A DNA stretch of 23,217 bases from positions 1 to 23,217 of IMG/VR virus record IMGVR_UViG_3300049595_002300; one strand, given 5' to 3'. The stretch is from a virus. The translations under genes and the position numbers were made by a program. Position 1 is the first letter of the stretch. Each line of letters starts with the position of its first letter. Below are positions 6,412-22,850 of the stretch, one piece after another. Below the pieces are notes generated by a model, which saw nothing but the letters and a program-made list of their open reading frames with translations, was not told the origin of the DNA and searched no databases.

Positions 6412-8136
6412 GTGGCAAAGATTCATCTTGGCATCATTGTAGGCAACGAAGCGGCCAACATTACCCGCTTTCTGGACTCGTTTCAGCCGCACGTTGATTC
6501 CGTCAGCGTAGTCCGCGCCTGCGGCAACCAGACGCCCGACGAGACGCTGGACATTGCCAAAGCCCGCGGCTGCATCACGGGCGAGTATCTGAACGGCGAG
6601 ACCGGCAAGGATTGGCCTCACGTCGATTCGTTCTGCGCGGCCCGAAACCAGACCTTTGCCCTGGCGCCCGAGGGCACCGATTGGCTCATGTGGGCCGACT
6701 GCGACGACCTGCTGGCCGACTCCGGGGCTGAAGTGCTGGCCAAGATCCGCAGCGGCACCGAGATCATCAAAGGCGCAATCTACGCACCGTATGTGACCAG
6801 CGCCAGCGGCAGCTACGCCCGCCGCATCCGTCTCGTCCATGCGGACTTTTACAGCCAGTGGATCAATGCCGTTCACGAGGACATTGAGACCAAGGAGGGG
6901 ACCAAAAACACCTGGTGCATGGAAATGCAGGTCATCCACCTTCCCGAAAACAACAAGCGCAGCAGCGTCACGCGCAACCGCGCCATCCTTGAAAGCGTGG
7001 CACCGGAGCAGCGCACGGGCCGCGAGTGGTGGTTCCTGTTCCGCGAGTGCGAAACGCAGCAAGACATCCCCAAAGCCATGGAGGCCGCGATCTACGCCAC
7101 GGCGCACCCGGACCTCGGCGACGAGGAAAAGTTTGTCGCCTACCAAACCATTGGCCGGTGGATCAAAGACGTGGACGAGGCCGAGCGCCCACTGCTCGAG
7201 GCCGTGCGCCTCATGCCGTGGCGCCGGGAGGGATACGCCGAGCTTTGCAAAATGCACACGGCCAGAGGCAATCCAAGCAAGGCGCTGGCCTATGCCAACG
7301 CGATGGAGGCGCAGCCGATGCCGGACGAACCTTCTTGGACGCACGATGCGTCTCTCTACGGCTGGCGAGCTCACGATCTAAAGACTCTTGCCCTGGCTAA
7401 AGCCGGCCATACCAAGGAAGCCGAACGCATCCGCAAGGAATGGCAGAAGCGCCTCAAACCCCGCATTGCCGTAGGCCACCCGGCGGGCAGGGGGCAGAAG
7501 GACATCGAAGTCCGCAACCTCTGGCTGGAGCGGGCCGCGCACCCGGAGCGCGTGGCCTACTATTTCGGCATTTGCGAAAGCGACAAGGAGGTGGTCGAGC
7601 AGTTGCAGCACTACCCGCACGCGATGGCAACCGCCGTTCCCGAAGGCCATTCCTCTGCCGTGGCCAACTACAACGCCGCCGCCCGAGCCGCCACGGCATC
7701 TGGAGCCCGCATCTTCATTATGGCGCAGTCGGACGTTTACCCGCCCCACGGATGGGACGAGCAAGTGATCCAAGCCATGACCCCGCACATGGAGAAGCCG
7801 GCCGTGCTGCACGTTTCGGACGGCTTCAACAAGCCAGGCGAACAGCTAATGACCATCATGTGCTTCAACTGGCGGTGGTGGCTGGGGCGCGAGTGGCTGC
7901 TTTGCCCCGAATACGACGGCTACTGGTCGGACACTGAGTTTTCTTTCCGCGCTTACCGAGACGGCGTGGTCGAGGACGGGCGGCACATTAAGTTTTACCA
8001 CGACCATCCCATTTTTACGGGCGCGGCCTCAGACGAGTGCTACCGCCGCCAGCAGAATCCCGAAGCCAACGAGCGTGGCAAGGCAGTGTTCCGCCGCCGA
8101 AACCCTGACGCCGTGCTGAAAGGATGGGTGCCATGA
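6412..8136 (+). CDS. Two-domain glycosyltransferase with helical-repeat middle
   Basis: This 574-residue product starts at a GTG. Residues 1-190 form a GT-A fold family-2 glycosyltransferase: 'HLGIIVGNEAANITRFLDS' is the usual nucleotide-sugar-binding opening, and D96-C-D98-D99 in 'WADCDD' is the metal-binding DXD. Residues about 205-350 are helical with TPR-like repeats ('KAMEAAIYATAHPDLGDEEK', 'ALAYANAMEAQP', 'TLALAKAGHTKEAERI'). Residues about 375-574 look like a second GT-A domain, with 'IFIMAQSDVYPP' (D441) in the DXD position and 'GYWSDTEFSFRAYRDG' as the acceptor/catalytic segment. Similar GT2-TPR proteins glycosylate proteins or peptides. Its place after the capsid gene suggests a virion target, which is inference. 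It overlaps the next gene by 4 nt (ATGA). Confidence 0.85.
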   Translation: MAKIHLGIIVGNEAANITRFLDSFQPHVDSVSVVRACGNQTPDETLDIAKARGCITGEYLNGETGKDWPHVDSFCAARNQTFALAPEGTDWLMWADCDDLLADSGAEVLAKIRSGTEIIKGAIYAPYVTSASGSYARRIRLVHADFYSQWINAVHEDIETKEGTKNTWCMEMQVIHLPENNKRSSVTRNRAILESVAPEQRTGREWWFLFRECETQQDIPKAMEAAIYATAHPDLGDEEKFVAYQTIGRWIKDVDEAERPLLEAVRLMPWRREGYAELCKMHTARGNPSKALAYANAMEAQPMPDEPSWTHDASLYGWRAHDLKTLALAKAGHTKEAERIRKEWQKRLKPRIAVGHPAGRGQKDIEVRNLWLERAAHPERVAYYFGICESDKEVVEQLQHYPHAMATAVPEGHSSAVANYNAAARAATASGARIFIMAQSDVYPPHGWDEQVIQAMTPHMEKPAVLHVSDGFNKPGEQLMTIMCFNWRWWLGREWLLCPEYDGYWSDTEFSFRAYRDGVVEDGRHIKFYHDHPIFTGAASDECYRRQQNPEANERGKAVFRRRNPDAVLKGWVP

Positions 8137-8711
8137 AGCTGGAAATCCTAATTCCTACCATGCCGTCCCGAGCGGCCATGCTGGAAAAGCTCCTTGCTGT
8201 ATTAAAACCGCAGGCCAAGCGCAGCGTCCGCATCACCATTGATGACGGCCCTGGCACGGTCGGGGTTAAGCGCCAGCGCATGATCGAGCAGGCCACGGGC
8301 GATTATGTGGCCTTTGTGGACGATGACGACATGGTCGCGCCCGACTACGTTGCTCGCATTCTTGCGTGCCTCAAAAGCGACCCAGACGTGGTTGGAATCA
8401 CCATGCACGTCACCATCGGCGGCGAAAACTACCGACCATCACCAATATTTCGCCACAGCCTACGCTTCCGCGACAATCAACACTGGCAGGGACACAACCG
8501 CACCCCACATCACCTTTGCCCCGTAAAACGCCAAGTGGCGCTAAAAAGCCGTTTTCCCGATATGATGTGGGGCGAGGACTACAACTATGCCCTCGGCCTG
8601 CTGCCGCATTTGCAAACCGAAGGGTGGAGCGGAAACAAGCCAATCTATTTTTACAATTACGTCAGCAAGCACTACGACCCAGCCTGGCGGGGCTTTGACT
8701 CGCAGCCATAG
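8133..8711 (+). CDS. Family 2 glycosyltransferase
   Basis: This 192-residue single-domain GT-A enzyme has an N-terminal 'MKLEILIPTMPSRAAML', a 'TIDDGPGTVGVKRQRMIEQA' segment, the metal-binding acidic run 'FVDDDDMV' (D63-D66) and a likely catalytic 'WGEDYNYA' (E148, D149), the ED motif of family 2. It is shorter than most GT2 enzymes (about 230-300) but all core motifs are present. The ATG at 8133 is preferred over the one at 8124 because AAAGGA (8119-8124) lies at Shine-Dalgarno distance and the start overlaps the previous stop as ATGA. The pair is translationally coupled and probably works in sequence on one glycan. Sugar and acceptor are unknown. Confidence 0.88.
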   Translation: MKLEILIPTMPSRAAMLEKLLAVLKPQAKRSVRITIDDGPGTVGVKRQRMIEQATGDYVAFVDDDDMVAPDYVARILACLKSDPDVVGITMHVTIGGENYRPSPIFRHSLRFRDNQHWQGHNRTPHHLCPVKRQVALKSRFPDMMWGEDYNYALGLLPHLQTEGWSGNKPIYFYNYVSKHYDPAWRGFDSQP

Positions 8712-16387: not shown

Positions 16388-16572
16388 TGAGCCTCCACGC
16401 CGCCACCGACTTCCTCGCCCGCCCGCTCGTCGCCTCATCGGCCACGCTCAGTTCGGTCGTCATCTCCCTTCTCCCGCACCTCGAAAGCGGTATGCGCCTC
16501 GGAACCCTCGGCTGCGGTTTGCTCATCGGCCTCTTGGCCCTTCGTAAAAGCTGGAGGGACCGCCACAAATGA
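16384..16572 (+). CDS. Small two-helix membrane protein (possible holin)
   Basis: This 62-residue protein has two hydrophobic segments (about 16-31, 'VASSATLSSVVISLL', and 38-53, 'RLGTLGCGLLIGLLAL') joined by a short 'PHLESGM' turn, and a basic C-terminus (RKSWRDRHK). The layout fits class II holins or small inner-membrane phage proteins. It starts within the stop of the exported protein (AATGATGA; ATG at 16384 or 16387) and its own stop overlaps the next start. It would be a second holin candidate besides that at 21682; it may instead work with the exported protein before it. Too short for a firm family call. Confidence 0.65.
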   Translation: MMSLHAATDFLARPLVASSATLSSVVISLLPHLESGMRLGTLGCGLLIGLLALRKSWRDRHK

Positions 16573-16937
16573 GCTGCTGCAACTCCACCAGTGCGGATCT
16601 GACTTGGACCCGTGGCGACTCGGGCCGCCTCGATGTCGTCGTGAAGCAGGCGGATGGCGAGCCGTATGACCTTACCGGGGCGACCCTGTTCTTGACCGTC
16701 AAGACCGCGCTCACCGTCACCGACGCCAACGCGACCATCTCCAAGACCGTCACCGCGCACGACGATGCCGAGGAAGGCGAAAGCCACTTCGACATCACCG
16801 GCGGCGCGACTCCCGACAACCTTACGGCGGGCACTTACTTTTACGACGTTCAACTCAAGGACAGCGCGGCCAAGGTCTACACGCTCTTTGGCGGCCAATG
16901 GCGCGTCCTTGGCGATGTAACCCTTCGCACGACTTAA
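16569..16937 (+). CDS. BppU-N-like baseplate adaptor protein
   Basis: This 122-residue protein has the pattern of the N-terminal domain of phage baseplate upper protein (BppU): 'TWTRGDSGRLDVVVKQADG' followed by 'PYDLTGATLFLTVKTAL', then 'GESHFDITGGATPDNLTAGTYFYDVQL' and 'VYTLFGGQWRVLGDVTLRTT'. In BppU proteins this beta-sandwich binds the tail core and holds receptor-binding trimers. Here it is a free-standing domain directly before the spike gene, so it may be the adaptor onto which the spike docks. The ATG overlaps the previous stop as ATGA. The gene ends in a 12-bp sequence repeated at the end of the spike gene. Confidence 0.72.
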   Translation: MSCCNSTSADLTWTRGDSGRLDVVVKQADGEPYDLTGATLFLTVKTALTVTDANATISKTVTAHDDAEEGESHFDITGGATPDNLTAGTYFYDVQLKDSAAKVYTLFGGQWRVLGDVTLRTT

Positions 16938-16940: not shown

Positions 16941-19298
16941 ATGGCCGACTACTCCGTAGAAATTAGCATCCCGTCAGTCGGTCCAGGGCAAGGCACTATC
17001 AACGTGACCCATGCCGAGCTTTTGTCGCTCATGGGATCGCAGGGTTTGGTCGCCAACGCCGCCTACAGAATCACCGACTTCGTTACCGAATACATGGCAA
17101 ACGACAATTCTGACGAATTGCGTGAATGGATCTCTCCATCCAATACAGCCAATGTAAGCCTAAACAACGGCACGGCTTTTACGGTGGCCTCTATAGCGGC
17201 CACACCAGAGCCATTGATTGTCTATGCTTTTAGTTCAAGTGAAGTATCTGGGGAGGCTTATTCCGAACTATACCCCAAGGATATTATCCGCTACGACCCA
17301 CAACTGACTTACCTTGACGGCACGCGCACCGCCAAAGGATTTATCACTTACCGAAAAGACACCGTTAGGGAAATTGCGTGTGATTACGATTGGCGCAACG
17401 TTCGCTTCAAAAGATGGAAACTTGATCCAACGGCAACAACAAACTTTGCGAATCTCACCAGCACGGCCATTTCGCCGCTTGCCACTTCTACCAGCTACAA
17501 TGTTGGGGATGTTGTAACACTTGGAACTTCTGCTGGAAGCGCAGGGGTTTTATTCTGCGTAAAAAAACACACAAGCCCAGCCAGCATAACCGCCAGCGGA
17601 TATTTGCCGACCTACGATGAAGATGCATGGATTCCGTTTTTCAATCGCGTGCGCGGCTTCATGCACACGCCAGCCCTACCAAAGCCAAGTTACAACGGGG
17701 GCGGCGGATACCTTGGTGGGTATGGGCAGGCCAGTTATCTTTACACATTCTCGGAAAGCAACGGCACGGCTTCAACATCAGCGGCCTCGGCAATTACCAT
17801 TACGCGCCCCACGGGTGGCTTTGCTTTTCCAGATAGATATAGCCTGAGCTTTAACAATATCGTTGTAGTCAGGGCCGCAACTGGAAGCAGCATTTTTGCA
17901 AGAAATCTTGAGTGTGCTAATTGCTACGACATGACGCTTTATGGTATAAGTCAAAAAACCGATTGTGTTTTAAAGGACAGTTACAATCTCTATGTTGACG
18001 GAAGTTTTATAACAAACGAACTTGTTGGCGCGACAAACAGCTTCTTTCTTTCGGACACCCGAAGATGCAAAGTATACAATTTCGATAATTGCATCATTCA
18101 CGGGCAAGCTATTGGCGCTGTTATCGAATCATTGGCATCGTGCTGCATTGGGAGAAACTCCTCACAATCACGTTTTTTAAACTGTCGCAATGTGTCTTTT
18201 GTTAATGGAGGCTCAGACAAAAGGCTGGTTGTGGAGAATCCATTGGAATTGTCTAATGGCCGTGCGCTCTACCTACAGCCGTTGCTCCAACAGGGAATTA
18301 GTGGATCTGGACAACAGGCATCGGATGCAAAAGTAACGGTTGGATTTAGCAAAATACCGCACTACGAATACAGGGACGAAAATGACAATTTGGCGCGTGT
18401 TTCTGCTTACGGAACCACGCCCATTCTTTCGCGCCACGCCGACAATGCGGTAACCAGCCGATTGCAAGCCGCAACTGATCCATCTTTCAAGGCCATTTTT
18501 ACAACTCAAGACCACGCCACGCCAACTTACGTCCGAAACACAGACTGCTGGTGCTATGATCTTGCGGAGGAAATGACCTGCATTAGCCCGTGGAACAGCG
18601 CAAGCGGAAGTCCAAGTGGCGTGACGGGAGGGGGCACATTAATCACGCCGCGCCACATTTATATGGCCGCTCACTTCAAGATCCCTGTCGGTGCTACCAT
18701 CCGATTTGTCACTGCGGATAATCAAGTGGTTAACCGTGAATTGGTGGCAAGCTACACTCACCCATCCTATGTGAATGGCAGCTTTAATTTTGACGTAACA
18801 GTAGGACTGCTGGCCAGCGATGTTCCTGCCTCAATAACTCCCGCTCAGACTCTCCCGCCAAACTTTAACGATTACTTTATTGATCAAGCTGGAGGATTTT
18901 ATCTTTCCAGACCCCCCGCTGGCGCACTTTACACGGATCAAGAGGAAAAAGCATTGGTGATTGATCATGTTGCATCCAGTTCTGACATCCACGATTTTTA
19001 TCCGCCCGTATCCGCGCTAAAATTGTCCGCCTTTGAAACCATAATAGTGGGCGATTCAAGCAATCCTGTTTTTTTCATAATCAACGACAAGTTGGTTTTG
19101 CTTGCTGCTTGGTCAGCGGTGCGCGGGGATAGCTCCGCCTTTGGCTGGGACTACAACACGCCGCTTCGCAATAGCGGCACAACAAAAGCCCCGCTTCTTC
19201 AAGCCATGATCAGTGCGGTAGACGCCGCGCATGGCGTTTCCACGGGCCATCAACTTGACCTTGTTGATTTAAGTTCCTTTGTGAAATTCACGACTTAA
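16941..19298 (+). CDS. Tail spike with C-terminal chymotrypsin-like (S1) domain
   Basis: This 785-residue receptor-binding candidate has three parts. Residues 1-150: beta-rich N-terminus ('HAELLSLMGSQGLVANAAYRI', 'YPKDIIRYDPQLTYLDG'), as in other phage spikes. Residues about 300-450: short repeated strands with regularly spaced Cys, Asn and aromatic residues, probably a parallel beta helix. Residues about 525-760: a trypsin-like serine-protease pattern. 'GGTLITPRHIYMAAHF' places catalytic His578, 'FNFDVTVGLLASDVP' places Asp618, and 'IIVGDSSNPVFFI' places Ser706. The spacings of 40 and 88 residues agree with chymotrypsin (45 and 93). Gly193 and Asp194 equivalents are kept; the usual GDSG is GDSS. 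The DNA is clearly more AT-rich than its neighbours. No signal peptide is present, as expected for a virion part. Confidence 0.85.
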   Translation: MADYSVEISIPSVGPGQGTINVTHAELLSLMGSQGLVANAAYRITDFVTEYMANDNSDELREWISPSNTANVSLNNGTAFTVASIAATPEPLIVYAFSSSEVSGEAYSELYPKDIIRYDPQLTYLDGTRTAKGFITYRKDTVREIACDYDWRNVRFKRWKLDPTATTNFANLTSTAISPLATSTSYNVGDVVTLGTSAGSAGVLFCVKKHTSPASITASGYLPTYDEDAWIPFFNRVRGFMHTPALPKPSYNGGGGYLGGYGQASYLYTFSESNGTASTSAASAITITRPTGGFAFPDRYSLSFNNIVVVRAATGSSIFARNLECANCYDMTLYGISQKTDCVLKDSYNLYVDGSFITNELVGATNSFFLSDTRRCKVYNFDNCIIHGQAIGAVIESLASCCIGRNSSQSRFLNCRNVSFVNGGSDKRLVVENPLELSNGRALYLQPLLQQGISGSGQQASDAKVTVGFSKIPHYEYRDENDNLARVSAYGTTPILSRHADNAVTSRLQAATDPSFKAIFTTQDHATPTYVRNTDCWCYDLAEEMTCISPWNSASGSPSGVTGGGTLITPRHIYMAAHFKIPVGATIRFVTADNQVVNRELVASYTHPSYVNGSFNFDVTVGLLASDVPASITPAQTLPPNFNDYFIDQAGGFYLSRPPAGALYTDQEEKALVIDHVASSSDIHDFYPPVSALKLSAFETIIVGDSSNPVFFIINDKLVLLAAWSAVRGDSSAFGWDYNTPLRNSGTTKAPLLQAMISAVDAAHGVSTGHQLDLVDLSSFVKFTT

Positions 19299-19302: not shown

Positions 19303-20556
19303 ATGACCGCCAGCAGCCAATACTACAAAGCGACCGCCTACCTCGGCACCGGCACGCACCACGAGGTCGAGGTGACCATCCCTCTCGTCGGCCCCGCTGG
19401 CCCGCAAGGCCCGGCAGGCAGTGGGGGCGGCGGCGATGTCGAAAGCGTCAACGGCCAGACCGGCGTGGTTGTCTTGGCGGCGGCAGATGTGGGCGCGGCC
19501 GCAACCTCCCACACCCACGCAGCCGCCGACATCACCAGCGGCACGCTCAACATCGGTCGCATCCCTACCGGCACCGGCTCGACACAGGTGGCCCTCGGGA
19601 ACCACACCCACACCCTCTCTGCCATCACCGACGCAGGCACCGCTGCGGCGCAGGACGCCAATCAAGACCTTGGCACGAGCGACCAAGTGACGTTTCAAGG
19701 CGTCACCGTAAACGGACCGCCCGTCAATGAGATTTATCCCGGCGAAGGAGTGGTAAACTGCGGCAAGCTGAACCTCGACACTTATGCAGTAGACCTCGGC
19801 GGCGGCTCGACGGGAGACGGCTTTCCTTCAATCGTCTTCGGCGCACTCAATGGCGGCATCACGCTTAAAGGACCGGAAGGGGACATCACGACAAGCAAGG
19901 TGATCAATATCCCCAACGCCAGCGGCACCCTCGCCCTAAACCCCCTAACCACCGCAGGCGACCTCTTCGTCGGCGGCACCAGCGGAGCGCCCGCGCGCCT
20001 GGGCATCGGAACGGCGAGCCAGCAGTTGCGCGTTAACTCGGGGGCAACGGGGCTGGAATATTTCACGCCGGCTGCGGGCGGCACCAAGACCCTTGCCGTC
20101 TTCACCGCCGAACACAATCAACCGCCATCGACCAGCTTTGCCACGCTCGACACCCGCAACAGCATCGCCGTCCTCGACTTCGATGACGCCACCGACGAGT
20201 CCGCCGTCTTTGTCGGCATAATGCCCGAAGGCGCCTCGCTCGGCTCTGGCCTCAAGATTCGCCTCCATTGGGCCGCAACCACGGCAACATCTGGCGATGT
20301 CCGATGGGATGTTTCAATTATGCGAACGACCACCGATCTGGACAGCGACTCGTTCGACACGGTGGCCTCGGCGACCGCGACCACCAGCGGCACATCGGGG
20401 ATTCTGACCGTAACCGAAATCACGCTTACGACCATCGACAGCGTGACGGCGGGCGATGGATTTAGGCTGCGTGTGACGAGGGATGCCAATTCTGGGTCAG
20501 ACACGCTCAGTGGAGACTGTGAACTTTACATCTGCGAGGTAAGGAGCGCGGCGTAA
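19303..20556 (+). CDS. Tail fibre with collagen-like segment
   Basis: This 417-residue trimeric fibre candidate has an N-terminal strand region (1-28), a short collagen-like run of Gly-X-Y triplets (GPAGPQGPAG, residues 30-39), a Gly-rich hinge, then the common phage-fibre phrase 'SVNGQTGVVVLAAADVGAAA' with 'SHTHAAADITSGTLNIGRIP' and 'ALGNHTHTLSAITDAG'; the HTH motifs often bind metal along fibre axes. From about 265 to 417 lies a beta-sandwich head ('LDFDDATDESAVFVGIMP', 'LKIRLHWAATTATSGDVRW') that likely contacts the receptor or caps the fibre. It begins 4 nt after the spike gene. Composition returns to GC-rich, unlike the spike. Confidence 0.82.
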   Translation: MTASSQYYKATAYLGTGTHHEVEVTIPLVGPAGPQGPAGSGGGGDVESVNGQTGVVVLAAADVGAAATSHTHAAADITSGTLNIGRIPTGTGSTQVALGNHTHTLSAITDAGTAAAQDANQDLGTSDQVTFQGVTVNGPPVNEIYPGEGVVNCGKLNLDTYAVDLGGGSTGDGFPSIVFGALNGGITLKGPEGDITTSKVINIPNASGTLALNPLTTAGDLFVGGTSGAPARLGIGTASQQLRVNSGATGLEYFTPAAGGTKTLAVFTAEHNQPPSTSFATLDTRNSIAVLDFDDATDESAVFVGIMPEGASLGSGLKIRLHWAATTATSGDVRWDVSIMRTTTDLDSDSFDTVASATATTSGTSGILTVTEITLTTIDSVTAGDGFRLRVTRDANSGSDTLSGDCELYICEVRSAA

Positions 20557-20558
20557 TC

Positions 20559-21206
20559 ATGGCTTACGAATTTAACGGGTCAAGTCAGTATTTGAACACG
20601 GCGTCAACGCCAGTGACGGCGTTTCCTATGACGCTTGCCGCATGGTTTTACCCAGATGCAAATACTCAAAACTATGCGCTGGTGTCTGTCACGGATAATG
20701 CAGAAACCAACAGCAATCGGATTGGCATTACTGCGCTTGGGGGTGTCGCAGGAGATCCGGTGCAGGCTTTTGTCCAAACTTCTGTCGCAACAGGAACAGC
20801 AAACTCAACAGCGGCTTTTGCAAGTGTCGCATGGAATCATGTGTGCGGTGTGTTTGAATCAACAGCGAGCAGAACCGTTTATTTAGACGGAGCCAATTCG
20901 GCGACAAACAACACAAGCGTAACGCCCAGCGGAGTAGACCGTATCAGAATTGCCGCGCGGTTTTCGGGCGGATCGCCAGGACTTTATTTCGATGGCCGCA
21001 TCGCCGAAGTCGGCATTTGGAGCGCCGCCCTCAACGCCGACGAAGTTGCCTCTCTTGCAGACGGCATCACTTGCGACAAAGTCCGCCCGCAGTCCCTTGT
21101 CTTCTACGCGCCGCTGGTCCGCGAACTCATCGACGTGCGCGGCGGCCTAACGATCACCAACAACAACACGGCCACAGTCGCCAACCATCCGCGAGTTTAT
21201 GCCTAA
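20559..21206 (+). CDS. LamG / concanavalin-like domain protein
   Basis: This 215-residue protein is a single laminin-G-type (LamG-like jelly-roll) domain: 'YEFNGSSQYLNTAS', 'PMTLAAWFYPDANTQNYALVS', 'WNHVCGVFESTASRTVYLDG', 'DRIRIAARFSGGSPGLYFDGRIAEVGIWSAALNADEVASLADG'. These are the hallmark strands of the family, which binds sugars or proteins. In a phage it would be a carbohydrate-binding fibre tip or a free adhesin. The first 130 residues are in AT-richer DNA and the last 85 in GC-rich DNA like the neighbours, suggesting a recombinant gene. It starts 2 nt after the fibre stop (TAATCATG) and overlaps the next gene by 8 nt. Confidence 0.85.
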   Translation: MAYEFNGSSQYLNTASTPVTAFPMTLAAWFYPDANTQNYALVSVTDNAETNSNRIGITALGGVAGDPVQAFVQTSVATGTANSTAAFASVAWNHVCGVFESTASRTVYLDGANSATNNTSVTPSGVDRIRIAARFSGGSPGLYFDGRIAEVGIWSAALNADEVASLADGITCDKVRPQSLVFYAPLVRELIDVRGGLTITNNNTATVANHPRVYA

Positions 21207-22247: not shown

Positions 22248-22850
22248 GTGAACACACTTATTACATGGTTGAAGCAATCATTCGTGGCCTTTCTGGCTGG
22301 CCTGCAAACGATAGGAGACAAGTCGCCCTTGCCCTCGTTCGTCGCCTCTCCCCAACCGACCTGTCCGAAGTGCTCGTCGCCGCAACAGACCGCCTCCAAG
22401 CCGAAGCCGCCAAGCGCCGCAAAAAAGCTCACGGGCGCAAAGGCTGACTTTCAGCGACTTCTTGATGAGGCAGGCGTGAGATATTTCACGGCCGACGAAG
22501 TGTTCTTCCGTGGCGCACGGGATGCCCGGCTCAACCTCAACACCGACCCGCCGCGCAGCCTGTGGCCATCCCTGCTGGCCGTCACCAAAGTCGCCGACGA
22601 GGCGCGGCACCGGATCGGCCGTCCGCTGCGGATTAACTCGGCCTACCGCAACGCGGCCTACAATCGCGCCATCGGCGGGGCCTCGGCCTCGATCCATATG
22701 CGCGGCGGCGCGCTTGATCTCTCGGGTTCACCCGTCACGCTGCGACGCATCCTGCGCGAAATGCGCGACGAGGGGCTGTTTCGTGGAGGCATCGGTCGGT
22801 ATCCGACTTTTACGCACGTTGATGTGAGGGGCAAGAGCGTTGATTGGTAA
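22248..22850 (+). CDS. Endolysin, peptidase M15 family
   Basis: This 200-residue product cuts peptide stems of peptidoglycan, as an L,D- or D,D-carboxy/endopeptidase. The C-terminal domain (about 77-200) has the M15 zinc signature: 'SAYRNAAYNRAIGG' then 'SASIHMRGGALDLSG' giving His150 and Asp157, and 'FTHVDVRG' giving His190. The N-terminal 76 residues are a short hydrophobic helix (about 5-20, 'ITWLKQSFVAFLAGLQ') and a Pro/Ser/Lys-rich linker. A second possible start is GTG 22476 (Val77), with GAGG 5-6 nt upstream, which would give a bare 124-residue M15 domain. The longer start is a GTG one base after the previous stop. The choice is uncertain. Confidence 0.85.
   Translation: MNTLITWLKQSFVAFLAGLQTIGDKSPLPSFVASPQPTCPKCSSPQQTASKPKPPSAAKKLTGAKADFQRLLDEAGVRYFTADEVFFRGARDARLNLNTDPPRSLWPSLLAVTKVADEARHRIGRPLRINSAYRNAAYNRAIGGASASIHMRGGALDLSGSPVTLRRILREMRDEGLFRGGIGRYPTFTHVDVRGKSVDW
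22265..22447 (+). CDS. Possible 60-residue protein overlapping the endolysin 5' end
   Basis: In a different frame from the endolysin, ATG 22265 opens a 60-codon reading frame encoding 'MVEAIIRGLSGWPANDRRQV', 'LALVRRLSPTDLSEVLVAAT' and a basic tail 'RLQAEAAKRRKKAHGRKG'. The sequence looks protein-like (helical, amphipathic, few rare residues). If real, the endolysin may start at GTG 22476, leaving no overlap. Codon third positions do not decide between the frames. Confidence 0.35.
   Translation: MVEAIIRGLSGWPANDRRQVALALVRRLSPTDLSEVLVAATDRLQAEAAKRRKKAHGRKG

Follow-up and report, generated by a model that had tools for sequence, protein, structure and literature searches.

Why a phage tail fibre should end in a domain resembling chymotrypsin is the question raised by a 785-amino-acid open reading frame (positions 16941–19298, + strand) of a 23.2 kb viral record, which was analysed at its full length and is referred to here as the window. 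A sequence-only reading had assigned a complete S1-type catalytic triad to the C-terminal third of this tail fibre or spike protein, and inspection of the open reading frame placed the three residues exactly where they had been claimed, at the claimed spacing of 40 and 88 residues. The predicted catalytic His578 (18672–18674, + strand) lies in AAHF and corresponds to chymotrypsin His57, Asp618 (18792–18794, + strand) lies in FDVTVGLL and corresponds to Asp102, and Ser706 (19056–19058, + strand) lies in GDSSNP and corresponds to Ser195; they follow each other in the order His, Asp, Ser within the S1-like contexts AAH, D-[IVL] and GDS. The location in the C-terminal third also held, while the span allotted to the domain proved too small. 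Because the confidence of a full-length model jumps from below 50 to above 80 near residue 490, the boundary was set there, and the S1-fold (chymotrypsin-like) domain, as delimited by AlphaFold2, Foldseek and this boundary, covers approximately residues 490–785 (18408–19295, + strand). Residues 47–480 of the full-length model, for which the alignment held two sequences only, have a pLDDT below 50.

Single-sequence scans of the window protein returned no Pfam or PHROGs match at E ≤ 1, and a single-sequence PDB search gave one weak trypsin-like match (4m7g, E 0.004, residues 550–725). An alignment of the domains of 61 relatives (A3) was used as input for both a PDB profile search and AlphaFold2. 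The profile matched 54 PDB sequences, 53 of them S1 proteases, and its alignments, including that with plasminogen activator 1a5i, paired all three triad residues, which places the triad in S1 register at the level of sequence alignment. Comparison of a predicted structure with S1 structures, as proposed in the sequence-only reading, bore the assignment out: the 61-sequence alignment yielded a confident model (pLDDT 86, pTM 0.88) with the double beta-barrel of the chymotrypsin fold, and Foldseek against the PDB returned 755 matches at E ≤ 0.001, the best 50 of which are all S1-type protease entries or S1-fold chains (E ~1e-8, probability 1.00). We base the fold assignment on Foldseek together with the profile matches in the PDB, given that a profile comparison with HtrA-like S1C sequences by hhalign was weak (E 0.0012 but a probability of 19%, with the Ser motif and the barrel in register); the control comparison with the N-terminal module instead gave E 0.64. 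By fold and triad, there is hardly any doubt that the C-terminal third of the fibre protein is a genuine serine protease of the chymotrypsin type.

With the S1 proteases (clan PA, trypsin/chymotrypsin fold, PF00089) the domain shares the fold, the His-Asp-Ser order, the G-D-S motif and an alignment in register, but identity in structural alignments is only ~10–19%, and the window domain departs from them by an extra N-terminal helix and strands ahead of the barrel and by its GDSS. The Pfam Trypsin family PF00089 gave no match to the window protein at E ≤ 1, nor did it turn up when the window record was searched for families; among the 61 relatives, PF00089 was reached by seven at E ≤ 0.1 (best E 7.8e-5), and PHROGs and NCBIfam scans of all 61 returned no family, save for one irrelevant repeat match. 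The domain is a known enzyme fold, forming a new family in an unusual place, barely within reach or out of reach of all family models tried. Its best viral structural match is the uncharacterised and unannotated protein A0A6J7XEP5 of an uncultured Caudovirales phage (E 6.7e-20, TM 0.78), 23% identical to the window domain, while the only relative of the domain among 50,697 phage records is an unannotated protein of podovirus MW202510 (Manatee Spring), which has the same domain and triad at 21% identity and a different N-terminal partner. S1-type domains in tail fibres are the subject of no paper that we could find in the open-access literature; one article (PMC10783043) names a trypsin-like serine protease as a protein of some T4-like Alphaproteobacteria phages, and tblastn recovered no such phage as a relative.

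Gene context and a shared N-terminal module give good support for placing the domain on a tail fibre or spike, the term spike being drawn from context. The window encodes a GpA-type terminase, a lambda-type portal, a weak capsid match and glycosyltransferase-like genes, followed by tail genes and an M15 peptidase. Directly upstream of the fibre gene lies a gene for a BppU_N-like baseplate protein (16569–16937, + strand; PF10651, E 5.5e-5, over its cut-off; phrog_1084, E 2e-19) and directly downstream one for a tail-fibre protein (19303–20556, + strand; several PHROGs tail families, best E 2.5e-9). The N-terminal fibre module, residues 17–212 (16989–17576, + strand), recurs by tblastn (alignment A6) in other phage fibres, namely Sphingomonas phage PAU gp99 and proteins of the huge phage LR756504 and the gut phage MT835470. 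The latter two carry no protease after the shared module, and the MT835470 protein ends, as judged by eye, in tail-collar-like sequence.

A search with the N-terminal 493 residues found only the near-identical fibre of one other contig (L001/L003). From codon 44 through the stop codon, the fibre gene and this contig share 85% nucleotide identity, the match to L003 beginning at 17070, and the rest of the window gave no further match within the 8.6 kb compared. At the protein level, identity between the window and L001 fibres is 54% over the first 43 codons and 86–91% thereafter, and these 43 codons (16941–17069, + strand), the probable virion anchor, are replaced in the otherwise homologous L001 fibre. 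The fibre has been swapped between viruses from codon 44 on.

Copies of the domain were found in both phages and bacteria, 71 on viral contigs and 81 in bacterial genomes, giving a divergent set of 152. On the viral contigs, the protease domain stands C-terminally after many different partners and N-terminally in others; an 898-amino-acid phage protein (L002:5010-7706) has two tandem N-terminal protease domains, both with canonical GDSG, the domain occurs nearly alone in L067 and L075, and two protease-domain genes lie close together in L017 and L058, each right after a fibre-like gene as judged by eye. The scan of bacterial genomes with a tighter sub-alignment retained 79 loci, mostly from Verrucomicrobiota, Planctomycetota, Lentisphaerota, Kiritimatiellota and patescibacteria, and a search of plasmids found no relative. 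Since L107 (Luteolibacter pohnpeiensis), L091 (Anabaena lutea), L087 and L089 adjoin phage head, tape-measure or tail-fibre genes, they are probably prophage tail genes, which gives named hosts; L. pohnpeiensis has two further copies besides the prophage one. Many other bacterial copies bear signal or lipoprotein leaders (by eye), some bear dockerin, TSP3, PG-binding or T9SS sorting domains, and copies of these kinds look like secreted, extracellular enzymes. The protease domain is a mobile module that occurs both in phage tail regions and on secreted-looking bacterial proteins, a distribution suggesting that the target of these phages is a host-surface protein and not a sugar.

We consider it fairly probable that the window protein is a catalytically competent tail-fibre S1-fold serine protease, from a family absent from Pfam, PHROGs and NCBIfam, which cleaves a protein of the host surface or extracellular matrix. 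Its proteolytic activity, virion location, substrate and step of infection are what we infer: the fibre would hold the protease domain at or near the virion exterior, the domain would cleave the surface or matrix protein on contact, by analogy with depolymerase spikes, and cleavage would allow the receptor to be reached, the path to be cleared or the virion to be released. The protease at the C-terminus of the fibre would then have relatives among the exoproteins of the probable host group. Depolymerase tailspikes, by comparison, attack capsule sugars. These capsule or LPS hydrolases, lyases and esterases likewise place an enzyme on a fibre with an exchanged N-terminal anchor and would work alike if the window enzyme is active, although the fold in the window is that of a protease and not of a sugar-active enzyme, and a beta-helix trimer would be putative in it. 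To our knowledge, tail-borne enzymes are overwhelmingly sugar- or peptidoglycan-active.

An alternative that we regard as unlikely is self-maturation, in which the protease would cut the fibre that bears it, or adjacent virion proteins, as the particle is assembled, and nothing on the host. Self-cleaving C-terminal tail-spike domains exist in the form of the Peptidase_S74 chaperones, which are serine-based and usually located at the spike C-terminus, and the domain likewise occupies the C-terminus of the window protein and of many relatives. It differs from them, however, in its S1 fold with a His-Asp-Ser triad and in not being restricted to C-termini, and the Pfam S74 chaperone domain gave no match in the window protein at E ≤ 1. 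Cleavage at a protein surface is a better fit than self-maturation, because the position of the domain varies, including the N-terminal, tandem and nearly solitary arrangements described above, and because secreted-looking bacterial proteins carry it. The domain thus has no fixed relation to a fibre, and no conserved self-cleavage site is obvious.

Less probable still is that the S1-like fold has been retained as a binding module which would recognise a receptor without cutting it; haptoglobin-like pseudo-proteases exist. The window itself gives some reason to consider this, as the GDSG to GDSS change next to Ser706, pointed out in the earlier reading, is real and represents a minority state: the family consensus is GDSGNP, with GDSG in 64 of the 71 viral and 80 of the 81 genomic copies, and a Ser following the nucleophile (position 196) in 4/71 and 1/81, respectively. 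Further variants retain the triad and have lost Gly193 (to F, Y or L) or Asp194 (to N, S, T or C), as seen in L008, L009, L011, L012, L062, L066, L068 and L073; such losses are confined to a few viral copies and never occur in bacterial ones. Viral relatives without Gly193 or Asp194 may differ in activity, and given these losses not every phage copy need be fully active. Pseudo-enzymes, however, normally lose triad residues, and this triad is complete wherever it can be followed. His and Asp are present in all 152 domains (71/71 viral, 81/81 bacterial) and Ser in the 151 that reach that point (70/70 and 81/81), one viral copy ending before it; with this shortened copy set aside, the three triad residues are the sole invariant columns of the joint alignment. 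In the 61-sequence alignment, they are the only invariant columns outside the fetch peptide GTLISPRHI, within which the other three (G565, L567, H572) fall; the corresponding window signature GTLITPRH (residues 565–572; 18633–18656, + strand), shortly before the catalytic His, is (near-)invariant in the 61 relatives. The fetch peptides included neither His578 nor Asp618, whereas one of the two peptides for the bacterial genome search included GDSGNP, so that conservation of the Ser arises partly by selection in that group and not in the viral one.

That the triad alone is invariant in 152 domains argues for an active enzyme, and the pseudo-enzyme was rejected as the main reading, as was a chance resemblance to a triad in view of the invariance and the fold. 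The dN/dS between the window and L001 over the domain is ~0.08. This pattern is what an active hydrolase maintained by selection would show, and it is at odds with a domain that has decayed or serves structure only. Of the 71 viral copies, 53 have a Glu seven positions ahead of Ser706; a role for it in specificity was weighed and rejected, since Lys is just as frequent in bacterial copies. Finally, it is highly improbable that the triad acts on acylated surface glycans instead of proteins: tailspike esterases are common, S1 enzymes hydrolyse esters in vitro and the window also encodes glycosyltransferase-like proteins, but the structural and profile matches are S1 peptidases and not SGNH or alpha/beta-hydrolase esterases.

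A tree of the domains offers a lead to the host of the window, which may belong to an Akkermansiaceae-type bacterial group, as the window and L001 fall together (SH-aLRT 96) with a TSP3-repeat protein of the Akkermansiaceae. The tree requires no fewer than 10 switches between phage and cell, six of which are forced by well-supported branches, the exact counts being loose in a quick tree with long branches. A wider picture, which we hold tentatively but as a serious possibility, is that unrecognised phages, many of them probably infecting Verrucomicrobiota, Planctomycetota and bacteria like these, use fibre S1-fold proteases as protein depolymerases, that the domain has been transferred repeatedly between phages and bacteria, and that proteolytic access to receptors is general. 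If true, phages would widely reach their receptors by proteolysis as well as by sugar depolymerisation, and a large family of tail-fibre S1-fold proteases would give them a general means against protein coats; surface proteins would also stand out as barriers to phages in little-studied bacteria, and many 'hypothetical' tail and secreted proteins would gain a clear annotation.

Several minor observations accompany these results. The bacterial copies include a distinct Verrucomicrobiota clade (L131, L133, L137-L163) of ~250–340 amino acids with little beyond the protease domain and lipoprotein-like leaders (by eye); L150, the one member that was scanned, gave no Pfam match. The contig that shares the fibre has an open reading frame (L001:6592-7338) resembling, by eye, a GIY-YIG homing endonuclease. 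In the window, a stand-alone concanavalin/Laminin_G_3-like lectin domain (E 3e-21) is encoded at 20559–21206, two genes past the fibre, and is likely another adhesion part, and a Peptidase M15 protein (E 7e-19) at 22248–22850 is probably the endolysin. Two overlapping glycosyltransferase-like genes (6412–8136 and 8124–8711; phrog_13126, E 6e-17, and Glycos_transf_2, E 2e-10) lie within the structural cluster, and their products possibly glycosylate virion or host-surface components.
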